Shown one piece after another: positions 3,290-30,934 of a stretch of 64,000 nt of DNA. Each line of letters starts with the position of its first letter. Position 1 is the stretch's first letter. A program made the position numbers and the translations under genes. The stretch lies in assembly GCA_902799345.1 (NCBI GenBank), contig CADBZW010000010.1:42397-106396 (forward strand), given 5' to 3'. The DNA is from an uncultured Bacteroidia bacterium. Its GTDB lineage: Bacteria > Bacteroidota > Bacteroidia > Bacteroidales > F082. The notes under the pieces were generated by a model. It did no database searches. It had not been told where the DNA came from and worked only from the letters and a program-made list of their open reading frames with translations.

Positions 3290-3697
3290 CTATTTCTTCT
3301 TTTGAACATACTTTTTGGCCTGCGGGTCATAGCCTTCAGTAACGAGCACGAACACATCGGCATCGAGCCAGTCAGTGAGACGAATGGTGTAGTCCTCTTC
3401 GCCCTTCCTGGTCACAAACTGCCACTCACCTTCCTTGGGAGCACGGTCGACCACACGGACATTGAAGTTGTGAGCCTCGCCCCAGTTGCTGAACCACACG
3501 CGCACATCGGCGTGTTCGTTAGGGCCGACGATACGAACCTTCCCATAGACACTCCGTGTGACACTCGCCGAAATGTTGGCCCCGTAGTCCGTCACGATGG
3601 TGATAGTCTCGTCATCAGAGTGATACACGGGACTCCCTTGGGCGAAGCCGAAGACTGCTGTCAAAACCAAAGACACTATAATAAACAACCTCTTCAT
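3290..3697 (-). CDS. Secreted small protein antisense within the tail operon (DUF6150-like, moron candidate)
   Basis: The 135-residue protein begins with a clear signal peptide (Met-Lys-Arg, then a hydrophobic core ending Val-Phe-Gly-Phe-Ala-Gln, cleavage around residue 20). The mature part is beta-rich, with repeated short strands of the form Ala-Asp-Val-x-Val, recalling the DUF6150 'septoil knot' proteins of Bacteroidota; this family call is tentative. It is encoded against all its neighbours, squeezed between the hub stop (3284) and spike start (3725), and has its own TATCTTTG promoter box. Such independently transcribed cargo in a late operon is usually a moron, expressed from the prophage for the host's benefit. 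Its function is unknown. Confidence 0.75.
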   Translation of the reverse strand: MKRLFIIVSLVLTAVFGFAQGSPVYHSDDETITIVTDYGANISASVTRSVYGKVRIVGPNEHADVRVWFSNWGEAHNFNVRVVDRAPKEGEWQFVTRKGEEDYTIRLTDWLDADVFVLVTEGYDPQAKKYVQKKK

Positions 3698-7140: not shown

Positions 7141-7150
7141 TCACTTCAGT

Positions 7151-7261
7151 GGGGCCACAGAAAAGGCCCCCGCCTCCAAAGTCAGGCCCTTACCCCTGAC
7201 AATGATAAAGGTGCCACAACACCACGGCAGAGGCCGTAAGCCTCTCGGTGTTGTGGCACCT
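7151..7261 (+). terminator. Three consecutive hairpins ending the tail operon
   Basis: Three perfect or near-perfect stems lie in a row. At 7151-7170 GGGGCC pairs with GGCCCC. At 7181-7200 GTCAGG pairs with CCTGAC. At 7209-7261 a 15-bp outer stem beginning AGGTGCCACAACACC encloses an inner AGAGGC/GCCTCT stem with loop CGTAA, and a T-rich stretch follows. The last is the likely terminator. The whole block separates tail genes from the modification-like cassette and could also act in its leader. Confidence 0.7.
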
Positions 7262-7326
7262 ATTTGTTTATACAATGTAAGGGACTGCAAAAATAGATAA
7301 AAAACGACAACCTAAAACATACAAAG

Positions 7327-7470
7327 ATGGAAAACAAGAAGAAAAGCTACACCTACCACCCGCAATACGGCATCGTGGTAATGTGCACAGACGAGCAGAA
7401 CCAAATCGACACGTTCAATCGTCTGAAGGAATTGAACCTTGGTCTAAAACTTAAAGTTGTAACGGTATGA
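7327..7470 (+). CDS. Small protein translationally coupled to the ABC-GNAT gene
   Basis: A 47-residue open frame starts at ATG 7327 and stops at 7470, its stop overlapping the next start as ATGA. The product is basic at the N-terminus (Glu-Asn-Lys-Lys-Lys-Lys-Ser) and has a single Cys, so it is not a zinc finger like Mu Com. A C-terminal Leu/Lys-rich segment ends in Val-Val-Thr-Val. The exact overlap and the clean start suggest it is translated. The position before a GNAT gene recalls com-mom in Mu. No family was recognised. Confidence 0.6.
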   Translation: MENKKKSYTYHPQYGIVVMCTDEQNQIDTFNRLKELNLGLKLKVVTV

Positions 7471-8606
7471 GAATCGAAATCAACCACACCTGCGAGGACT
7501 TCACCAGCTACAGGGCAGAGCGCGTGAAATCCCTATTCAACGCCGAAACGGGCTACCAATGGAAGCACACGGCAGAACTGCCCATCGAGAACATGGACTG
7601 GCAAATCGGCCTCATCGTCGGAAGGTCGGGAAGCGGGAAAAGCAGCATTGGAAAAGCGATGTTCCCCGGTGTTCCGCTCTATGACCTTTATGCCGGATGG
7701 CATGAAGACCGTCCCATCATCGACGACATTTGTCCCGATGGTGACTTTGACGCGGTGACGGGCGCACTGTCAGCCGTCGGCCTTGGCGATGTACCGGCAT
7801 GGCTGCGACCGTTCAAGGTGCTTTCAAACGGCGAACAATTCAGGGCCGGTCTCGCCCGTCTCGTTTGCGACAAGCCTGAAATCGCCGTCGTGGACGAGTT
7901 TACCAGCGTAATTGACCGCCAGATTGCCAAGATAGGCGCGGCGGCCTTTGCGAAGAGTTGGCGGCGTGGAAAAGGCAAAATCGTCCTTCTTACTCCGCAC
8001 TTCGATGTGATTGAATGGTTGCAGCCCGATTGGGTGTACAACACAAACGAGGCGCGGTTCTACACCCGCGACTGCCTTCGGCAAAGGCCACAAATCGAAC
8101 TCTCAATTTACAGAGTTCCGGGAACGAAATGGGGTTATTTTAAGCCACATTACTATTTAGATCTGCCCATGCCCATCGCGGCCCAGTATTTCATCTGCTT
8201 TGCCGGTGACGAGCCTGTGGCACACCTTGCCGTTTGCCCGATGTTTCAGGGTGGACACTACCGGGCCACGCGCCTCGTGGTCATGCCGGAGTGGCAGGGC
8301 ATTGGCGTTGGCACGGCCTTCCTGAATGAGGTTTGCAGGCTTCATCTTGATGGCCAGGGACGGTGTGGGCGAAAGTACACCACATTGTTCCACACCTCGC
8401 ATCCGCAACTCTGCCGTGCGCTCAGGAAGTCGCCCAAATGGGTGCAGGTCAGTGGTGCGCTGAAGTTCGCCGACAAAAGCAAGTCCATCAAGACACTCAG
8501 CCGGTCGGCTATCAATGGCGGCATGAAACACGGAAGCGGTGGCTTTGGCGGCCATTTCAGGGCGGTACAAGGATTTGAATATATAGGAGACCAGGAACTA
8601 TGTTAG
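7467..8606 (+). CDS. ABC-type ATPase fused to GNAT acetyltransferase domain
   Basis: The 379-residue protein joins two enzymes. Residues 45-205 form an ABC ATPase: Walker A GRSGSGKSS (52-60), signature LSNGEQFRAGLAR (119-131), Walker B ending VVDEF (141-145) and H-loop His178. Residues 215-379 form a GNAT domain with motif A around RLVVMPEWQGIGVG (269-282), whose Gln-Gly-Ile-Gly-Val-Gly binds acyl-CoA in the family. There are no membrane segments, so it is not a transporter. The architecture matches proteins grouped as ABC-type ATPase fused to an acetyltransferase domain (COG2401, from memory). It overlaps genes on both sides, marking one operon. At this prophage position Mu carries mom, itself a GNAT-fold DNA modifier; a base-modification role is therefore inferred, not shown. 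Confidence 0.85.
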   Translation: MRIEINHTCEDFTSYRAERVKSLFNAETGYQWKHTAELPIENMDWQIGLIVGRSGSGKSSIGKAMFPGVPLYDLYAGWHEDRPIIDDICPDGDFDAVTGALSAVGLGDVPAWLRPFKVLSNGEQFRAGLARLVCDKPEIAVVDEFTSVIDRQIAKIGAAAFAKSWRRGKGKIVLLTPHFDVIEWLQPDWVYNTNEARFYTRDCLRQRPQIELSIYRVPGTKWGYFKPHYYLDLPMPIAAQYFICFAGDEPVAHLAVCPMFQGGHYRATRLVVMPEWQGIGVGTAFLNEVCRLHLDGQGRCGRKYTTLFHTSHPQLCRALRKSPKWVQVSGALKFADKSKSIKTLSRSAINGGMKHGSGGFGGHFRAVQGFEYIGDQELC

Positions 8607-9109
8607 TGAGGATATTAGGACAGACAACAACGCAGGCATATATCGCCGCAAAAGAGGTCGTAGAAAGATGCGGCTGCACGGTGTTCCATGATTCGATGGA
8701 GTATCTGCCGGACATGGAGATAGACCTGAACATCGCGCCGTTGCTGACGGAGAAGATCCCGACCGATGTAATCAAGGAGCCTCGCTTAGGCACGCTCATC
8801 TTTCATCCGTCACCGCTGCCGTATGGACGCGGTGCGGCATCCATCAAATGGGCCTACAAAAGGAATGAAGCCGTGACCGCCGCGACATGGTTCTGGGCTG
8901 ATGATGGCCTTGACACGGGCAATATCTGTGAGCAGGAAATCGTCAAAATAGACCACACCGTCAAGCCGCGACAATTCTACGAGCGCGACATAATTCCAGC
9001 CCTTTGTCGAACGCTTGAACGCTGTTTAAGCAGCCTTCGAATAGGTCTTAAACGCGAGATAAAGCAGCAGGGCAAATACGCCACATTCGACAGGAAAGAG
9101 GGCTTATAA
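8600..9109 (+). CDS. Formyltransferase-family protein (10-formyl-THF hydrolase-domain-like)
   Basis: The 169-residue protein carries the formyltransferase core: FHPSPLPYGRG (68-78) and FWADDGLDTGNI (98-109), the usual His and Asp elements. It resembles the hydrolase domain of 10-formyltetrahydrofolate dehydrogenase more than Fmt or PurN. The Asn two residues before the catalytic His is replaced by Ile67, with His69 and Asp105 kept; as I recall, the dehydrogenase hydrolase domain also has Ile there. It is shorter than the usual 190-310 residues. It overlaps the ABC-GNAT gene by seven bases and ends at a strong terminator. It may supply or transfer a one-carbon group for the same modification. 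Confidence 0.8.
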   Translation: MLVRILGQTTTQAYIAAKEVVERCGCTVFHDSMEYLPDMEIDLNIAPLLTEKIPTDVIKEPRLGTLIFHPSPLPYGRGAASIKWAYKRNEAVTAATWFWADDGLDTGNICEQEIVKIDHTVKPRQFYERDIIPALCRTLERCLSSLRIGLKREIKQQGKYATFDRKEGL

Positions 9110-9112
9110 GCG

Positions 9113-9151
9113 AAGTGGGCGCACCGGGGAAAATCCGACGCGCCCACTTTT
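9113..9151 (+). terminator. Rho-independent-type terminator of the ABC-GNAT cassette
   Basis: AAGTGGGCGC at 9113-9122 pairs perfectly with GCGCCCACTT at 9140-9149, with a 17-base loop followed by TT. It lies four bases after the formyltransferase stop and closes the cassette. Confidence 0.8.
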
Positions 9152-9160
9152 GGAAAAAAT

Positions 9161-9197
9161 TGTACGATTCATTTTAGAAATGTGTACAATTCGTTTT
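9161..9197 (+). repeat. Two direct repeats 22 bp apart, candidate transposase sites at prophage right end
   Basis: TGTACGATTCATTTT (9161-9175) and TGTACAATTCGTTTT (9183-9197) agree at 13 of 15 positions, and their starts are exactly 22 bp apart, two helical turns. They sit beyond the last prophage gene and before the host-like toxin-antitoxin pair. Mu carries adjacent directly repeated 22-bp transposase sites at its right end, so these may be the equivalent here. The exact end cannot be fixed without the left end. Confidence 0.5.
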
Positions 9198-9202
9198 TGC
9201 GA

Positions 9203-9475
9203 TTATATACGCTCTTCAATACTTGCTGAATCAATGTCAAATTGCGTTTGCAAGTTCATCCAAACCTCTGCAGGAATACCCATAGCTTTTTCTAATGCCA
9301 TGGCTACGGAAAGCGAAACTGAGCGTTTCCCATTGATGGTTTCGCTAAGGACAGAAGGTTTGATGCCAGTCAATTCCGACAATTGTTTCTGCGTCATGTT
9401 TCGCTCTTTCAGTTCATCCTTAATCATTTCTCCAGGATGAGTCGCAATAAAAGGGGTTATTCTATTATTATTCAT
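9203..9475 (-). CDS. higA: HigA-type antitoxin, XRE helix-turn-helix
   Basis: The 90-residue protein opens with the HigA signature Phe-Ile-Ala-Thr-His-Pro-Gly-Glu (9-16). It continues with a helix-turn-helix of the form TQKQLSELTGIKPSVLSE and a region Ala-Met-Gly-Ile-Pro-Ala-Glu-Val-Trp-Met-Asn-Leu-Gln typical of this antitoxin. It neutralises HigB and represses the operon. It is the second gene, overlapping the toxin gene by eight bases, the usual toxin-first higBA order. Its 3' end lies a few bases from the suspected prophage end, so the last residues may have been altered by the insertion. Confidence 0.88.
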   Translation of the reverse strand: MNNNRITPFIATHPGEMIKDELKERNMTQKQLSELTGIKPSVLSETINGKRSVSLSVAMALEKAMGIPAEVWMNLQTQFDIDSASIEERI

Positions 9476-9785
9476 AATGCTTTGATATTTCGATTATTAA
9501 TGCGTTAACAACGATTCCATTTCCATCAGGCGAACTCCCAAAATGCAATCTGTACTGGGTATTAATCCACACCACTTCCACACCTTTCAGGTCTCCTTTC
9601 TTTTTCTCATAATGCAGCGACTTAATCAAATACAAATCCTCAACACGTGTCGCGGCTTTAATATAATTTACCGTTTTGACGTATTGCTTCACTACATCTA
9701 AAGGCAACTTCTTGTATTTTCGTTCTTTAGTTGAACCTGTCGTGTATAGTTCTTCTAATGCATTATCGTCAAATGATATGTTCAT
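9468..9785 (-). CDS. higB: HigB-type toxin, RelE superfamily
   Basis: The 105-residue protein is basic and has the RelE/HigB layout: an N-terminal helical part, then paired strands with Leu-Tyr-Leu-Ile-Lys-Ser-Leu-His-Tyr-Glu (about 52-61), Val-Val-Trp-Ile-Asn and Tyr-Arg-Leu-His-Phe (about 71-82), and a final helix with Ile-Glu-Ile-Ser-Lys-His-Tyr. HigB toxins are ribosome-dependent mRNA interferases. It is the promoter-proximal gene of the higBA operon. Short length and strong partner context make the call good even though catalytic residues vary in the family. Confidence 0.85.
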   Translation of the reverse strand: MNISFDDNALEELYTTGSTKERKYKKLPLDVVKQYVKTVNYIKAATRVEDLYLIKSLHYEKKKGDLKGVEVVWINTQYRLHFGSSPDGNGIVVNALIIEISKHYE

Positions 9786-25922: not shown

Positions 25923-28880
25923 ATGGAAAACACCGAAAAAAAACTCTTCCTTTTGGATGCCTACGCCTTGATTTACAGGGCTTTCTTTGCGATGAGCAAA
26001 AACCCGCGCCTCAATTCGAAAGGTGTCAACACCTCGGCGGTGATGGGCTTCCTCAACTCATTATATGAAATCCTACAGAAAGAAAGACCCACTCACATCG
26101 GCGTGGCCTTCGACGTGGCCGGCACCGCACAACGACAAGCCGAATACAGCGAATACAAGGCCAACCGCGAGAAAATGCCCGACGACCTCCGCGACGCCAT
26201 ACCTTATATAATAAGGCTCATCGAGGCTTTCAACATCCCCGTCTACGGCGTGGAAGGCTACGAGGCCGACGACGTCATCGGCACCTTGTCGAAAAAGGCG
26301 GAACAACAAGGCTTCACCACCTATATGATGACCCCCGACAAGGACTTCGGACAGTTGGTGACCGACAAAGTCTTGCTCTACAAGCCCGCTAAGTTCGGTG
26401 AACCGGCTCAGGTGTGGGGGCCTAAAGAGGTGTGCGAACGCTACGGCATACAAGAGCCCAAACAACTCATCGACATCCTCGGCCTCTGGGGCGATGCCGC
26501 CGACAACATCCCGGGCATTCCAGGCATCGGCGAGAAGACGGCAGCGATACTGGTGGGCAAATACGGTAGTGTGGAAAACCTCATCGCACATGCCGACGAG
26601 CTGAAGGGCAAACAGAAGGAAAACGTCATCGAATTTGCAGAACAAGGACTGATGTCGAAAGCACTGGCTACCATCAACCTGGAGGTGCCCGTCGAGTTCA
26701 ACGAAGAAGAACTGAAAGCCAAAGAGCCTAACGTACCAGCCTTGATGGCACTCTTTGAGGAACTGGAGTTCAGGACCTTCGCCAAACGGTTTTTGGAGGA
26801 TTATAAGACGAAACAATCCACTTTGGACGGCCCTTCGACCCTTCGAGGGGCCTCAGGGACCGCAGGCTCAGGGACCTTAGCTTCACCGTCATTGCGAGGA
26901 ACGAAGCAATCCAGGGAAGCGATGGAAAAACAAAGCCCCGATTTGTTTTCCAACCCTACTCCATCTGGCACCTTCGACCTCTTCCATCAAGGTGGCGAGA
27001 GCGAAACGGGTTTACTGGAGTTTTCCGACAAGGACTCAGCCAAGACGGTGAAGCATGACTACAAGCTTGTTGAAACCGAAGAAGAAATCAAGGCGTTGGT
27101 AGAACAGCTCAGTGCGCATGTCATACCGACCGACGAAGGAGGGAGTGTATCTATGCGCAAGCAATTCGTCTTCGACACCGAGACAACCAATATCGACGTG
27201 TACTCCGCCGAACTGGTGGGCGTTTCGTTTGCCATCAAAACCCATGAGGCGTGGTATCTGCCCATGCCCGCCGACCGCGAAGAATGTCAGAAAAAACTGG
27301 AGCTGCTACGACCTTTATTTGAAGACGAAAGCATTCTTAAGATTGGGCAAAACCTGAAATACGACATCTCTATGTTGGCGCAATACAGCATTGGCGTGAG
27401 AGGAAAGCTCTTTGACACCATGCTGGCGCATTACCTCATCGAACCTGAGCAACGCCACAACATGGACTACCTCGCCGAGGTCTACCTTAACTACATCACC
27501 ATTCCCATCGAGGAATTGATTGGCAAAGGCCGTCAGCAAAAGACGATGCGCGAGGTGCCTGTGGAATTGGTCAAGGAATATGCCGCCGAGGATGCCGACA
27601 TCACATTGCAACTCTATGAGAAGCTGCTGCCCTTGCTGAAAGAGAACGGCGTGGAGAAGCTGTTCTATGAAATCGAAATGCCGCTTGTGCCCGTGCTCAG
27701 TCGCATGGAAGCCAACGGCGTGCGTATCGACACGGAGAACCTGCAGCAAATCAGCGAGGAGTTTGGCAGAGAGATTCACAAAATCGAGGAAGACATCTAT
27801 GAGTTGGCTGGCGCTCCTTTTAATATCGCCTCGCCGAAACAATTAGGAGAAGTTCTCTTCGAGAGACTGAAAATCGACGAGAAAGCCAAGAAGACCAAGA
27901 CAGGGCAATACGCCACAGGCGAAGACGTGTTGCAAAAGCTGTCGCACAAGCACCCTATCATCCAAAAGATTTTGGACTATCGCTCATTCACCAAGCTGAA
28001 ATCGACCTACCTCGATGCGCTGCCGGCACTGGTCAACCCGAAGGATGGGCTTATACATACCTCCTACAACCAAGCCGTTACCGCCACGGGGCGCTTAAGT
28101 TCCAACAACCCCAACCTGCAGAACATCCCCGTGCGCACTGAGAAAGGCCGAGAGGTACGTCGCGCCTTCGTTCCCCGCAGCGAGGCCTATACCCTCTTGG
28201 CCGCAGATTACTCTCAAATCGAGTTGCGCATCATCGCCCATCTGAGCCAAGACCCCGCCATGGTCGCCGACTTCAACCTGGGCCACGACATCCATGCCGC
28301 TACGGCTGCCAAGGTGTTCCACGTGCCGATGGAACAAGTCACCAAAGAACAACGCAGCCGTGCCAAGGCGGTCAACTTCGGCATCATCTATGGCATGTCG
28401 GCCTTCGGCTTGGCCGAACGCATGGAGCTCTCGCGCAGCGAGGCCGCCGATATCATCAAGAAATACTTCGAGGAGTATGCGGGCATCAAGGAATACATGA
28501 ACCGCAGCATCGCCCTGGCAAGAGAGCACGGCTATGCCGAGACCATACTGGGTCGCCGCCGTTACCTGCGCGACATCAACAGCGCCAACAGCGTGGTGCG
28601 TGGCTTTGCCGAACGCAACGCCATCAACGCGCCCATCCAAGGCAGCTCTGCCGACATGATCAAGATTGCCATGATTGGTATCCATCAAGAGATGGAACGG
28701 CTGAAGATGCAGTCAAAGATGATATTGCAGGTGCACGACGAACTGGTCTTTGACGCCCATCTCGATGAGTTGGACACCTTGAAAGCCATCGTCAACGACA
28801 AGATGGTGAATGCTTTGCCGCTATCGGTGCCGGTTATCGTGGAGATGAATACGGGCTCTAATTGGTTGGAGGCGCACTGA
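25923..28880 (+). CDS. polA: DNA polymerase I
   Basis: The 985-residue protein has all three domains: 5'-3' exonuclease (about 1-295, with Glu-Gly-Tyr-Glu-Ala-Asp-Asp-Val-Ile-Gly-Thr), 3'-5' exonuclease (about 380-570, with Phe-Asp-Thr-Glu-Thr-Thr) and polymerase (about 590-985, with Asp-Tyr-Ser-Gln-Ile-Glu-Leu-Arg and Gln-Val-His-Asp-Glu-Leu-Val). It removes primers and fills gaps in replication and repair. The linker between the first two domains is enlarged and carries two different dispersed repeats read in frame (residues about 302-331). The gene has two promoter boxes upstream. Confidence 0.97.
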   Translation: MENTEKKLFLLDAYALIYRAFFAMSKNPRLNSKGVNTSAVMGFLNSLYEILQKERPTHIGVAFDVAGTAQRQAEYSEYKANREKMPDDLRDAIPYIIRLIEAFNIPVYGVEGYEADDVIGTLSKKAEQQGFTTYMMTPDKDFGQLVTDKVLLYKPAKFGEPAQVWGPKEVCERYGIQEPKQLIDILGLWGDAADNIPGIPGIGEKTAAILVGKYGSVENLIAHADELKGKQKENVIEFAEQGLMSKALATINLEVPVEFNEEELKAKEPNVPALMALFEELEFRTFAKRFLEDYKTKQSTLDGPSTLRGASGTAGSGTLASPSLRGTKQSREAMEKQSPDLFSNPTPSGTFDLFHQGGESETGLLEFSDKDSAKTVKHDYKLVETEEEIKALVEQLSAHVIPTDEGGSVSMRKQFVFDTETTNIDVYSAELVGVSFAIKTHEAWYLPMPADREECQKKLELLRPLFEDESILKIGQNLKYDISMLAQYSIGVRGKLFDTMLAHYLIEPEQRHNMDYLAEVYLNYITIPIEELIGKGRQQKTMREVPVELVKEYAAEDADITLQLYEKLLPLLKENGVEKLFYEIEMPLVPVLSRMEANGVRIDTENLQQISEEFGREIHKIEEDIYELAGAPFNIASPKQLGEVLFERLKIDEKAKKTKTGQYATGEDVLQKLSHKHPIIQKILDYRSFTKLKSTYLDALPALVNPKDGLIHTSYNQAVTATGRLSSNNPNLQNIPVRTEKGREVRRAFVPRSEAYTLLAADYSQIELRIIAHLSQDPAMVADFNLGHDIHAATAAKVFHVPMEQVTKEQRSRAKAVNFGIIYGMSAFGLAERMELSRSEAADIIKKYFEEYAGIKEYMNRSIALAREHGYAETILGRRRYLRDINSANSVVRGFAERNAINAPIQGSSADMIKIAMIGIHQEMERLKMQSKMILQVHDELVFDAHLDELDTLKAIVNDKMVNALPLSVPVIVEMNTGSNWLEAH
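26828..26913. repeat. Two dispersed repeats in the polA linker
   Basis: The first part (26828-26880) repeats CCCTTCGA and CTCAGGGACC units. The second (26887-26913) is the 27-bp CATTGCGAGG...GAAGCAATCCA core, read as Ser-Leu-Arg-Gly-Thr-Lys-Gln-Ser. The second is related to the arms of the repeat at 21621-21723. Both keep the frame and lie in a flexible linker. Confidence 0.7.
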
Positions 28881-28882
28881 TT

Positions 28883-28917
28883 CAATTGACAATTGATAAT
28901 TGACAATTGACAATTAA
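28883..28917. repeat. Short tandem AT-rich repeat after polA
   Basis: The CAATTGA unit recurs about every ten bases (CAATTGACAATTGATAATTG and on) directly after the polA stop. Its self-complementary units can pair in several registers. Confidence 0.6.
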
Positions 28918-28954
28918 CTACGTTGAATCTTCGATTTGATAGTTGAAAATTGTG

Positions 28955-28962
28955 TAATTTTG
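28955..28962 (+). promoter_or_regulatory. -7 promoter box (TAATTTTG) for dnaG
   Basis: TAATTTTG ends 16 bases before the dnaG ATG at 28979. Confidence 0.65.
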
Positions 28963-28978
28963 CCGAAAATTTAGTGCG

Positions 28979-30934
28979 ATGGCCATACCAAGGGAAACAG
29001 TTGAACAGATTCTGCAAGCCGCTCATATTGAGGAGGTTGTAGGCGAGTTCGTCACCTTAAAGAAAAAAGGGTCGAACCTATGGGGAAACTGTCCCTTCCA
29101 CAACGAAAAAACGCCGTCGTTCAGCGTCAACCCGGCACGCAACATCTTCAAGTGCTTCGGCTGTGGCAAGGCCGGCGACTCGGCCAAGTTCCTCATGGAA
29201 CATGAGCACTACACCTACCCCGAGGCGTTGCGTTACCTGGCCAAGAAATACAACATCAAAATCGAGGAGAAGGAGCAGACTGCCGAGGAAATCATGCAGC
29301 AGAGCATCCGCGAGAAGATGTTCAACATCAACGAGTTCGCTGACAAGTATTTTGTCGACACGCTATGGAACACCGACGAAGGCAAGACCATCGGTCTCGA
29401 GTATTTCCGTGAGCGCGGCTACTTCGACCCCATCATACAGAAGTTCCACCTCGGCTACAACCCCGCCAAATGGGATGCCTTTACCGAACACGCCAAGAAA
29501 AACGGCTATAGCGAAGAGCTTTTGGAGCAGATAGGCCTGTCCATCAAGGGCAACAATGGCCTCTATGACCGCTACCACGGCCGCGTGATGTTCCCCATAC
29601 ACAGCCTGACGGGACGCGTCATCGGCTTCGGCGGCCGCATCCTCACCAACGACAAGAAAAGCCCGAAATACCAGAACTCGCCCGAGTCGGAGATCTACGA
29701 CAAGAAACAGACGCTCTACGGCATCTACTTCGCCAAAAACGCCATCGCCCGCCAAGACGAGTGCATCCTCGTGGAAGGCTACTTCGACGTGCTGCGTATG
29801 CACCAAATCGGCATCGAGAATGTGGTGGCCAGCAGCGGCACTTCGCTGACTATGGAGCAAATCCGTCTCGTGAAGCGTTACACGAAGAACATCACCATGC
29901 TCTACGACGGCGATGCAGCCGGCATCCATGCGGCCTTGCGCGGCACCGACATGATCCTCTCCGAGGGCATGAACGTACGCGTGGTGGTGCTGCCTCCCGA
30001 ACACGACCCCGACACCTTCGGCAAGGAGTTTTCGACGGAATATGTCAGCAACTATCTGAAGGAGAACGCCAAAGACTTCATCCGTTTCAAGACCGAGCTG
30101 CTGCTGAAAGACGCCGAGAACGACCCCATCAAGCGAGGGCAGGTGATTCGCGACATCGTGGAGACCATCTCCGTCATCCCCGACAGCATCTTCCGCATCA
30201 CCTATGTCAAAGAGTGTAGCCGATTGCTCGACATGCCTGAGCAGACACTCACCAACGAGTTGAACAAGATCCTGCGGGCAAAACTCAAGAAGACCCTAGG
30301 CATTGAAGAAAATGTAGTTCCCGAGACGGACACCACGACAGTGACGCCCAAGCAAGATGAAAATGTTGAAGAACAACTGCCGGCGGGATATTATCAGGAA
30401 CGCGAATTGGTGAAACTTCTCCTGATGTATGGCAAGGAGGTGATAGTTGACGAACGCGAAGACGAAAACGGGGAGAAAGTTTATGAGCAAGTCACTGTGG
30501 CACAAATGATTGTCGACGACCTAAAGATGGATGGATTCACTTTTACCAATGTCGTCAACCGAAAGATTTTCGACCTCTTCGACCAAGCCCTTGACGAAGG
30601 CCGCATCCCAAACGACCAGTTTTTCATCTCCCACGAGGACGAAACCATCGCCCAACTGGCCGCCGACCTGCTCTCAACGCCTTACAAACTCGACCAATGG
30701 GATAAATACGGCATTTTCGTCAAACGAGAGGAAAACATGCTGAGAACCACGGTCCTGTCATCACTTTACCGCTACAAGGACCTCATCATCGGGGAACGAC
30801 GCAAGGCCATTGAAGAAGCATTGAAAACCGAGGAGGACCTTGATAATCAACTCATCCTATTGAAGCAAAAGAAAGACCTCGACGACATCCGCAAGCAAAT
30901 CAACCAACATTTAGGCATCGTCATCGCCAAATAG
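28979..30934 (+). CDS. dnaG: DNA primase
   Basis: The 651-residue protein is DnaG, which makes RNA primers at the replication fork. The CHC2 zinc finger is complete (Cys38, His41, Cys59, Cys62). The catalytic TOPRIM core follows, with Val-Glu-Gly-Tyr-Phe-Asp (about 264-269) and Tyr-Asp-Gly-Asp-Ala-Ala-Gly. The C-terminal third is a helical helicase-interaction region. It lies downstream of polA but has its own promoter box, and it converges with the DUF4476 gene three bases away. Confidence 0.96.
   Translation: MAIPRETVEQILQAAHIEEVVGEFVTLKKKGSNLWGNCPFHNEKTPSFSVNPARNIFKCFGCGKAGDSAKFLMEHEHYTYPEALRYLAKKYNIKIEEKEQTAEEIMQQSIREKMFNINEFADKYFVDTLWNTDEGKTIGLEYFRERGYFDPIIQKFHLGYNPAKWDAFTEHAKKNGYSEELLEQIGLSIKGNNGLYDRYHGRVMFPIHSLTGRVIGFGGRILTNDKKSPKYQNSPESEIYDKKQTLYGIYFAKNAIARQDECILVEGYFDVLRMHQIGIENVVASSGTSLTMEQIRLVKRYTKNITMLYDGDAAGIHAALRGTDMILSEGMNVRVVVLPPEHDPDTFGKEFSTEYVSNYLKENAKDFIRFKTELLLKDAENDPIKRGQVIRDIVETISVIPDSIFRITYVKECSRLLDMPEQTLTNELNKILRAKLKKTLGIEENVVPETDTTTVTPKQDENVEEQLPAGYYQERELVKLLLMYGKEVIVDEREDENGEKVYEQVTVAQMIVDDLKMDGFTFTNVVNRKIFDLFDQALDEGRIPNDQFFISHEDETIAQLAADLLSTPYKLDQWDKYGIFVKREENMLRTTVLSSLYRYKDLIIGERRKAIEEALKTEEDLDNQLILLKQKKDLDDIRKQINQHLGIVIAK

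Follow-up and report, generated by a model that had tools for sequence, protein, structure and literature searches.

The question raised by this locus is what occupies the place of com and mom at the right end of a Mu-like prophage from an uncultured Bacteroidia bacterium. In the window (the whole stretch of 64,000 nucleotides analysed), three plus-strand open reading frames that overlap by 4 and 7 nucleotides occupy a late position behind the tail genes and encode a 47-aa protein, an ABC-ATPase/GNAT fusion (ABC-GNAT) and a formyltransferase-fold protein (FT) (Table 1). The initial annotation had described three overlapping genes closed by a terminator at the right end of a prophage, and the open reading frames, the predicted fold (-28.2 kcal/mol, z -4.55, for the terminator) and the divergence point of relatives agree with this layout: the prophage can be taken to end at about 9207-9209 because five relatives, located at other sites, diverge directly after CGATTATA. 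The feature as delimited at that stage started at 7141 and takes in a structured leader. The prophage is Mu-like, with a match to Portal_Mu (7.1e-70) and weaker matches to Phage_Mu_F, the MuB C-terminal domain and the Mu-like protease that are below their cut-offs; 4 of the 10 prophage proteins scanned, the putative transposase included, gave no match, and a search for the left end by the end motifs yielded nothing usable. PADLOC returned no match for FT or the 47-aa protein and weak partial matches only for ABC-GNAT (mad3, 3.2e-8; mad8; AbiLi).

Table 1. Features of the cassette and the adjoining prophage end, in window coordinates
Feature	Position	Strand	Evidence
Structured leader	about 7150-7326	+	Fold, covariation, pseudoknot complement, covariance model
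47-aa protein, stand-alone ParB-like C-terminal tail (phrog_28816)	7327..7470	+	Tail profile
ABC-ATPase/GNAT fusion (phrog_11143), 379 aa	7467..8606	+	Pfam, motifs, alignment
FDH/ALDH1L1-type formyltransferase-fold protein (FT), 169 aa	8600..9109	+	Profile, residues, Foldseek
Intrinsic-terminator-like hairpin closing the cassette	9112..9150	+	Fold energy
Mu-like prophage right end, with TTGTAC and GTACAA motifs	9151..9209	+	Divergence point of relatives

The 379-aa protein indeed combines the two domains with both motif sets, as had been read from the sequence at the outset. Its Pfam matches exceed the respective cut-offs (ABC_tran, 31 bits against 25; Acetyltransf_1, 24.5 against 20.7), and the ATPase motifs (Walker A, G52-K58; signature LSNGE, 119-123; Walker B, D143/E144; H178) and the CoA motif of the GNAT domain (Q277-x-x-G280-x-G282) are mostly invariant among 49 aligned sequences. 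The Foldseek and VIA lists for this protein consist of ABC domains throughout (model range 1-204) and are therefore uninformative on the GNAT part. For such a two-domain core, whose motifs are intact in the window protein, acylation of DNA bases has been predicted (Iyer 2013, as restated in PMC7824862), the acyl group being left unnamed in the part of that account used here. A jumbo phage named there, Tenacibaculum pT24, contains a relative by tblastn (5e-37, 38.6 % identity over 76 %). Compared with the systems as described in that part of PMC7824862, which names neither a formyltransferase nor a CoA-transferase partner, the window cassette adds FT and the ParB-like tail, and Com or a leader RNA occurs within the family. 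We predict that ABC-GNAT is an ATP-dependent acyl-CoA:nucleobase acyltransferase, and the gene features fit the initial proposal of an ATP-dependent modification using acyl-CoA; the partner genes suggest candidate acyl groups for a core that had been predicted before.

The cassette shares with Mu com-mom its place at the right end after the tail genes and the GNAT fold of one enzyme, and differs from it in having an ABC-ATPase and FT and in showing no detectable sequence relation to Mom. Homology of ABC-GNAT to Mom, which the initial annotation had already doubted, received no support: hhalign against the one Mom sequence of Mu gave a probability of 0.2 %, and phmmer with Mu Mom as the query recovered only Mu's own protein from the fetched stretches. 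The proposed com/mom position itself is supported by the relatives, since most of the proteobacterial ones encode, directly upstream of the cassette, Com, which regulates mom at the level of translation (PMC6483171; also the Mu record). Altogether, Com was detected upstream in 25 of 219 loci, namely 6 from IMG/VR and, in the GTDB set, 18 of 23 Pseudomonadota and 1 Thermodesulfobacteriota, plus Komp_PAO1_1; none was found in the window cassette.

FT matches Formyl_trans_N (5.5e-15, profile positions 73-168 of 181) and scores best against FDH (2.5e-39), followed by Fmt (1.4e-22) and HypX (3.9e-16); the top five Foldseek matches are all FDH, so that the N-terminal domain of FDH/ALDH1L1 is its nearest neighbor in both sequence and fold. 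Residues H69, P70, S71 and D105 are invariant in alignments of 22 and 29 FTs. Amine formyltransferases such as PurN, Fmt and ArnA use a catalytic Asn-His-Asp. The Asn two residues before the His is present in 0 of 152 distinct FTs from ABC-GNAT-anchored loci with the motif (153 FT pieces, less L171, where FT is in two pieces and lacks the motif), the position being G in 95, I in 48, V in 8 and A in 1. A larger count, over 191 FTs including one with a wrong anchor, suffers from some circularity because the scan motif itself excludes Asn before His. A canonical formyltransferase is rejected on the ground of the missing Asn, FT having only part of the canonical catalytic set. One Gordonia record annotates FT as a tRNA-methyltransferase. 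In the part of PMC6802093 used here, FDH is described as transferring formyl from 10-formyl-tetrahydrofolate to the phosphopantetheine of a carrier domain via His106/Ser108/Asp142, and CoA is the acceptor proposed for HypX. His-Ser-Asp is common to FDH and FT, and Ile replaces the Asn in FDH and in the window protein alike, whereas FDH and HypX possess extra domains holding the carrier or CoA and FT, at 169 aa, consists of this one domain alone, which is moreover shortened at its N-terminal side. Since FT lacks the Asn and is closest to the thiol-loading domain of FDH/ALDH1L1, formyl-CoA is suggested as its product; these residues suggest a donor-charging enzyme with a pantetheine thiol as the predicted acceptor. 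On this view, FT is probably not a second base-acting enzyme.

Failure of ABC-GNAT and FT to co-occur had been set beforehand as the observation that would count against the proposal; instead, 159 of the 219 distinct loci (the best 80 or fewer per scan) have FT behind ABC-GNAT, and the pair travels as a unit in Bacteroidota prophages as anticipated, although it is not restricted to them and is found in phages of many bacterial groups. The remaining loci contain another module (14), no recognised module (29) or a contig end (17). Because the loci were fetched by similarity to a query, these counts are not a random sample: they comprise the best 80 of 281 and the best 80 of 479 loci, together with smaller scans of 39, 38, 4 and 1 loci taken whole (the ABC-GNATs of Arthrobacter and Leptospira giving the last two), and 23 of 242 loci were dropped for repeated ABC-GNAT DNA to leave the distinct set. 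Two loci were assigned by hand: L103, where ABC-GNAT and FT are fused as a single open reading frame, and L185, where aspartate decarboxylase and CoA-transferase precede a second ABC-GNAT copy. In a separate scan with the FT motif as the query (the best 80 of 330 loci), ABC-GNAT lay upstream of 75 out of 76 distinct FTs, a figure that holds only for FTs without Asn before His, as the scan motif excludes it. FT is present in 75 of the 80 GTDB loci, repeats included; five of the 29 module-less loci belong to this GTDB set of FT-clade relatives, and L153, L154, L156, L164 and L177 are FT-clade ABC-GNATs without FT. Within the FT clade, the gene neighborhoods indicate near-obligate linkage.

In phage Jace, isolated on Rhodococcus, ABC-GNAT is followed by an aspartate decarboxylase (2e-33) and a type III CoA-transferase (2.2e-8), and relatives also carry this pair in place of FT. 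It is apparently another acyl-CoA supply; against this, the CoA-transferases of these phages are only about 220-240 aa long, and their match covers no more than positions 4-107 of a profile with 366 positions. The two modules occur together in 0 of 219 loci, and a tree of ABC-GNATs (108 of 212 sequences after thinning, built by a quick method, with L338 flagged as a long row) separates FT rows (67 with FT, 5 with no module) from the rest (11 with CoA-transferase, 25 with none) with an SH-aLRT of 100. L209, considered as a donor swap within the Jace clade, was dropped because the tree places it among the FT rows.

The 47-aa protein of the window has no Pfam match and at its length comprises no ParB N-terminal domain, nor does the window cassette include a ParB. 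Among 13 annotated phage loci, six from unrelated phages encode, immediately before ABC-GNAT, a ParB-like protein whose C-terminus is matched by the tail profile (E-values from 2.5e-18 to 1.4e-3), and ParB_N domains occur in tail-bearing proteins; in the same set, the Pasteurella (0.43) and Leptospira (4.5) loci gave no significant match, and no tail was found in the Vibrio, Aeromonas, Nonlabens, Tenacibaculum and Thomasclavelia phages. Judging by this profile, the 47-aa protein is a ParB C-terminal tail. A Porphyromonas phage record tags its small gene as an anti-CRISPR ('acr candidate'), for which homology to the ParB tail would be the simpler reading.

In the leader, the loop CCCTTAC of hairpin P1 can pair with a downstream GTAAGGG, forming a pseudoknot that encloses a long hairpin, P2 (about 7210-7262); the region 7200-7300 folds with -41.9 kcal/mol (z -5.73). 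The covariation score of P2 is 0.333 versus 0.096 for shuffled alignments (reached by 0 of 500), but doubly changed pairs and pair types do not exceed the shuffles (159 and 108 of 500, respectively). A pseudoknot complement of 5-11 nucleotides is present in 16 of 16 leader sequences and is reached by at most 9 of 500 shuffles in 14 of them, those of L101 (166/500) and L006 (28/500) being unremarkable. Of 100 sources searched with a covariance model, 30 have the leader on the plus strand at E<1e-6; 16 of these 30 had gone into building the model. With no Rfam match at the gathering threshold and three weak ones below it, this covarying RNA, carried by some Bacteroidota relatives, is absent from Rfam.

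We give about an even chance to the reading that this cassette, in the place of com and mom, modifies phage DNA against restriction and draws on exchangeable donor modules, of which the present one supplies formyl. FT would move formyl from 10-formyl-tetrahydrofolate to the CoA thiol, the ABC-ATPase domain, as a dimer with ATP, would engage phage DNA and present a base, and the GNAT domain would transfer formyl from formyl-CoA to an exocyclic amine of that base. The 47-aa tail would be a docking partner of ABC-GNAT; where other phages have it as part of a ParB-like protein, it might bring the ParB DNA-recognition domain along. We infer DNA as the substrate, formyl-CoA as the donor and the position modified. 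N6-formyladenine is chemically labile, which argues against it as the lasting mark. The reading is also weakened by the single-domain build of FT, the short CoA-transferases, the loci with no recognised module, the lack of ParB in the window cassette and of the tail in several distant phages, and the absence of a detectable relation between ABC-GNAT and Mom. Action on DNA is favored by the upstream Com, the ParB-like tail-bearing proteins and the published prediction of base acylation by ABC-GNAT, as restated in the part of PMC7824862 used here. It is unlikely, and slightly more so than the reversed reaction order considered below, that the target is instead tRNA, a ribosomal or RNA polymerase protein, or a surface sugar: GNATs acylate many substrates, the action on DNA is itself a prediction and the Gordonia annotation points to tRNA, but the regulator of mom upstream in relatives, the ParB_N domains in tail-carrying proteins and the late position behind tail genes speak against it.

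The order of reactions could also be reversed, the GNAT domain placing an acyl or aminoacyl group on DNA and FT then formylating that group from 10-formyl-tetrahydrofolate. This would suit an FT gene that adjoins ABC-GNAT and is once fused to it, and the ABC-GNATs without FT imply that the GNAT step may work alone; we nonetheless consider it rather unlikely, given that amine-formylating members such as Fmt use Asn-His-Asp whereas the Asn occurs in 0 of 152 FTs, that the nearest relatives of FT act on a pantetheine thiol, and that the CoA-transferase-like protein of the alternative module is not expected to tailor DNA. Highly improbable, in our view, is a third possibility, in which FT is a 10-formyl-tetrahydrofolate hydrolase feeding folate or nucleotide pools and ABC-GNAT acts independently with acetyl-CoA. 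The N-terminal domain of FDH is also named a hydrolase domain, and some FT-clade ABC-GNATs (the five listed above) lack FT; yet the adjacency in 75 of 76 cases, the overlapping genes, the fused open reading frame and the tracking of a single ABC-GNAT clade by FT are hard to square with a general folate enzyme.

More tentatively, and with some doubt, the DNA-modification reading might extend to an acyl-CoA DNA-acylation platform in phages of many phyla, in which a ParB-guided, ATP-driven GNAT core is combined with makers of either formyl-CoA (FT) or beta-alanyl-CoA (decarboxylase and CoA-transferase) to give N-formylated or beta-alanylated bases, under the control of Com in Proteobacteria and of a pseudoknotted RNA in some Bacteroidota. 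To our knowledge, neither kind of base has been described as an enzymatic DNA modification. Phage pathways of thymidine hypermodification likewise pair one core transferase with tailoring or donor genes that can be swapped; the present cassette differs in that its donor seems to be an acyl-CoA and in that neither a base kinase nor a radical-SAM or PLP enzyme was noticed adjacent to it. If our reading is true, the actinophages Axumite (a Gordonia phage), with FT, and Jace, with the other module, would be expected to differ in the mass added to a base, and the leader would be a new RNA linked to the modification genes of phages. DNA chemistry would then gain one-carbon units from folate and acyl-CoAs made by phages, and it would be explained what many Mu-like phages carry in the place of mom.

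The initial annotation described a cassette of three overlapping genes closed by a terminator at the right end of the Mu-like prophage, and this description holds: the gene for the 47-residue protein overlaps the ABC-GNAT gene (an ABC ATPase/GNAT fusion) by 4 nt, the latter overlaps the formyltransferase-fold gene (hereinafter FT) by 7 nt, and a terminator-like hairpin follows. The ABC ATPase and GNAT domains of the 379-residue protein both exceed the Pfam cut-offs, and the 169-residue protein contains a Pfam formyltransferase domain. The suspected prophage end behind the cassette is equally apparent because the window and related prophages at other sites part directly past CGATTATA, which ends at position 9207. 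Ten proteins encoded upstream on the same contig were scanned; these include a Mu portal protein (7.1e-70), whereas the matches to MuF, MuB and the Mu protease are weaker and under their cut-offs, and four proteins had no match. A single cassette copy was found in the genome, which is approximately 91% complete. Three additional features in or beside this prophage are a HigA-like HTH antitoxin and HigB-like toxin pair at its right end, with the antitoxin stop codon falling in the final few nucleotides of the prophage; an ORF inside the tail operon but on the other strand, whose start resembles a signal peptide; and, upstream of the window, a reverse transcriptase whose N-terminal part shares an N-rich template-like repeat with the preceding ORF, an arrangement that looks like a diversity-generating retroelement.

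Features of the cassette, the prophage and related loci (L-numbers denote fetched loci)
Feature	Location	Strand	Evidence
47-residue protein	window 7327-7470	+	ORF; PHROGs phrog_28816 (3.3e-11), unknown function
ABC-GNAT, 379 aa	window 7467-8606	+	ORF; PHROGs phrog_11143 (2.5e-141), unknown function
FT, 169 aa	window 8600-9109	+	ORF; PHROGs phrog_9240 (4.7e-20)
HigA-like/HigB-like pair	window 9203-9785	-	
135-aa ORF	window 3290-3697	-	signal-peptide-like start
Reverse transcriptase	L087 6029-7438 (G000 C10, the window's contig, 28429-29838)	+	RVT_1 (1.7e-15)
Axumite gene 3	L085 1805-2449		FT profile (1.6e-51)
Komp_PAO1_1 Com gene	L082 19695-19928		
Second ParB-like protein	L190 6197-6772		by eye
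Second ParB-like protein	L199 6092-6871		by eye

A 2021 article (PMC7824862) credits Iyer et al. (2013) with the prediction of an ABC ATPase-coupled GNAT that transfers an uncharacterised acyl group to a DNA base, and it names phage pT24, in which a relative was found. DNA acylation, the central idea here, is thus not new. In the accessible parts of the literature searched, no mention was found of FT as a partner gene, of the small protein as a ParB tail, of the link to Com, of the CoA-transferase module or of the leader RNA, all described below; some of these may be covered by the 2013 paper.

ABC-GNAT scans of IMG/VR (best 80 of 281 relatives) and GTDB genomes (best 80 of 479) were supplemented with scans from Jace, Gordonia, Arthrobacter and Leptospira queries, altogether yielding 219 distinct loci (repeated ABC-GNAT DNA dropped), sampled by similarity to the chosen queries. 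The 77 distinct loci of the GTDB set come from ten named phyla, to which Bacteroidota (31), Pseudomonadota (23) and Bacillota (10) contribute most. Downstream of ABC-GNAT, 159 of the 219 loci encode FT, 14 a CoA-transferase module and 29 no recognised module, and in 17 the contig ends within 250 nt. Conversely, a scan from the FT motif found ABC-GNAT upstream of 75 of 76 distinct FTs, the exception (L288) being a short piece amid terminase ORFs. Thus, the two genes, whose co-occurrence was to be checked across Bacteroidota prophages, travel as a pair, and do so well outside that phylum. On one short MAG contig (L103), they form a single open frame, which may be an assembly artefact. The ABC and GNAT domains occupy separate frames in 35 of the 75 distinct loci of the first (IMG/VR) scan. 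Most of these encode an ABC ORF of about 230 aa with GNAT behind it, a genuine gene arrangement, while a few (L034, L074, L080 and L081) look like broken copies. Split forms also occur in some Streptococcus and Oenococcus phages.

When a profile of the relatives of the 47-residue protein was run on 13 annotated phage loci, the best matches were the C-terminal parts of ParB-like ORFs immediately upstream of ABC-GNAT (Gordonia, 2.5e-18; Pseudoalteromonas, 3.1e-9; Arthrobacter, 2.1e-7; Oenococcus, 8.5e-7; Jace, 6.6e-6; Streptococcus, 1.4e-3); among these loci, the Pasteurella and Leptospira matches were not significant and five distant phages had none. Pfam detected ParB_N in three of the four tail-bearing upstream proteins scanned, in two of them under the cut-off, but not in that of phage Axumite. 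The tail stop and the ABC-GNAT start overlap by 4 nt in 123 of 186 measurable loci. Judging from sequence similarity, the 47-residue protein is a ParB tail, a homology that is better supported than the label 'Acr candidate' given to the small protein in a Porphyromonas phage record. Two loci encode a second ParB-like protein behind ABC-GNAT, with no donor module.

In phage Mu, Com, the translational regulator of mom, is encoded ahead of mom, whereas the window cassette is preceded by a structured leader, with no Com found. Com is nevertheless encoded immediately upstream in 25 of the 219 distinct loci, including 18 of the 23 distinct Pseudomonadota loci of the GTDB set, as well as in Pseudomonas phage Komp_PAO1_1, where the public record missed the gene and annotates a different frame. 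Three tested upstream proteins matched PF10122 with E-values of 7.9e-21, 5.4e-14 and 5e-6, compared with 2.7e-9 for Mu Com itself. The proposed lack of detailed homology to Mom is borne out by profile comparison, which shows no relation between ABC-GNAT and Mom, and no Mom homologs besides Mu's own were present in the fetched stretches.

The long helix of the leader comprises 15 pairs, 4 of them changing on both sides, with every cell paired. Its covariation score is 0.333 against 0.096 in shuffled data (reached in 0 of 500), whereas the numbers of doubly changed pairs (6 vs 5.1) and pair types (16 vs 14.2) are nothing unusual. The loop of a second hairpin has a downstream complement of 5-11 nt in all 16 sequences. 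For 14 sequences, no more than 9 of 500 shuffles equal it; those of L101 and L006 do not notably exceed shuffles. At E<1e-6, the threshold for all counts here (sixty weaker rows, including minus-strand echoes of the palindrome, were left out), a covariance model hit 30 of 100 sources, on the plus strand and always upstream of the cassette; 14 of the 30 were outside model building. Among GTDB sources, 12 of 29 from Bacteroidota and 0 of 15 others were hit. None of the nine Com-carrying sources reached E 0.1, and no Rfam gathering score was reached by the leader. We infer a control role for this RNA.

The FT profile is by far closest to the N-terminal domain of 10-formyl-THF dehydrogenase (FDH; 2.5e-39), ahead of Fmt (1.4e-22) and HypX (3.9e-16), with sugar formyltransferases and PurN also far weaker. 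Likewise, the top five PDB matches of the AlphaFold2 model (pLDDT 93.6) are FDH domains (E 1.7e-15 to 4.1e-13, rmsd about 6 A), followed by Fmt, ArnA and HypX. His69, Ser71 and Asp105 are unchanged across 22 and 29 aligned FTs. Amine formyltransferases carry Asn two residues before the His; at this position, the 152 distinct FTs from ABC-GNAT-anchored loci contain G (95), I (48), V (8) or A (1), and FDH has Ile in the profile alignment. The assignment to the formyltransferase family stands for domain and fold, but the canonical type is ruled out because the catalytic Asn is missing in 152 of 152 FTs. According to PMC6802093, FDH transfers the formyl group of 10-formyl-THF to a phosphopantetheine thiol via His106, Ser108 and Asp142, and CoA is the proposed acceptor of HypX. 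Given the FDH-like character of FT, the simplest inference from sequence, model and analogy is that its product would be formyl-CoA. Points against DNA formylation by the cassette are that HypX has CoA-holding parts that FT lacks and that N-formyl adenine is labile. Gene 3 of the Gordonia phage Axumite, recorded as a tRNA-methyltransferase, is yet a member of the FT family; its sequence is itself part of the alignment behind the profile that it matches, and it shares 23% identity with the window FT (4.5e-4).

Behind ABC-GNAT, phage Jace encodes an aspartate decarboxylase (2e-33) and a protein matching CoA-transferase III (2.2e-8), the match being limited to the N-terminal part of the profile. 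Among the 33 distinct loci of the Jace scan, 10 have both genes, 4 the CoA-transferase alone, 1 FT and 16 none, and 2 reach the contig end. The catalytic Gly-Ser pair is unchanged in 7 aligned copies of the decarboxylase, as is a catalytic Asp in 8 aligned copies of the CoA-transferase. Four loci (L181, L182, L185 and L186) have an ABC-GNAT copy on either side of the gene pair. FT and the CoA-transferase module co-occur in none of the 219 distinct loci. A quick midpoint-rooted tree of 108 ABC-GNATs separates 67 FT and 5 module-less rows from 11 CoA-transferase and 25 module-less rows (SH-aLRT 100; 2.49 + 0.45 changes per column across the root), and the three module labels require 9 changes compared with 36.3 when shuffled. 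Hence the donor gene tracks the acyltransferase, and the existence of a second donor module supports the formyl-CoA reading of FT. The module-less loci could draw on a host acyl-CoA; their existence means that a donor gene of phage origin is not required in every case.
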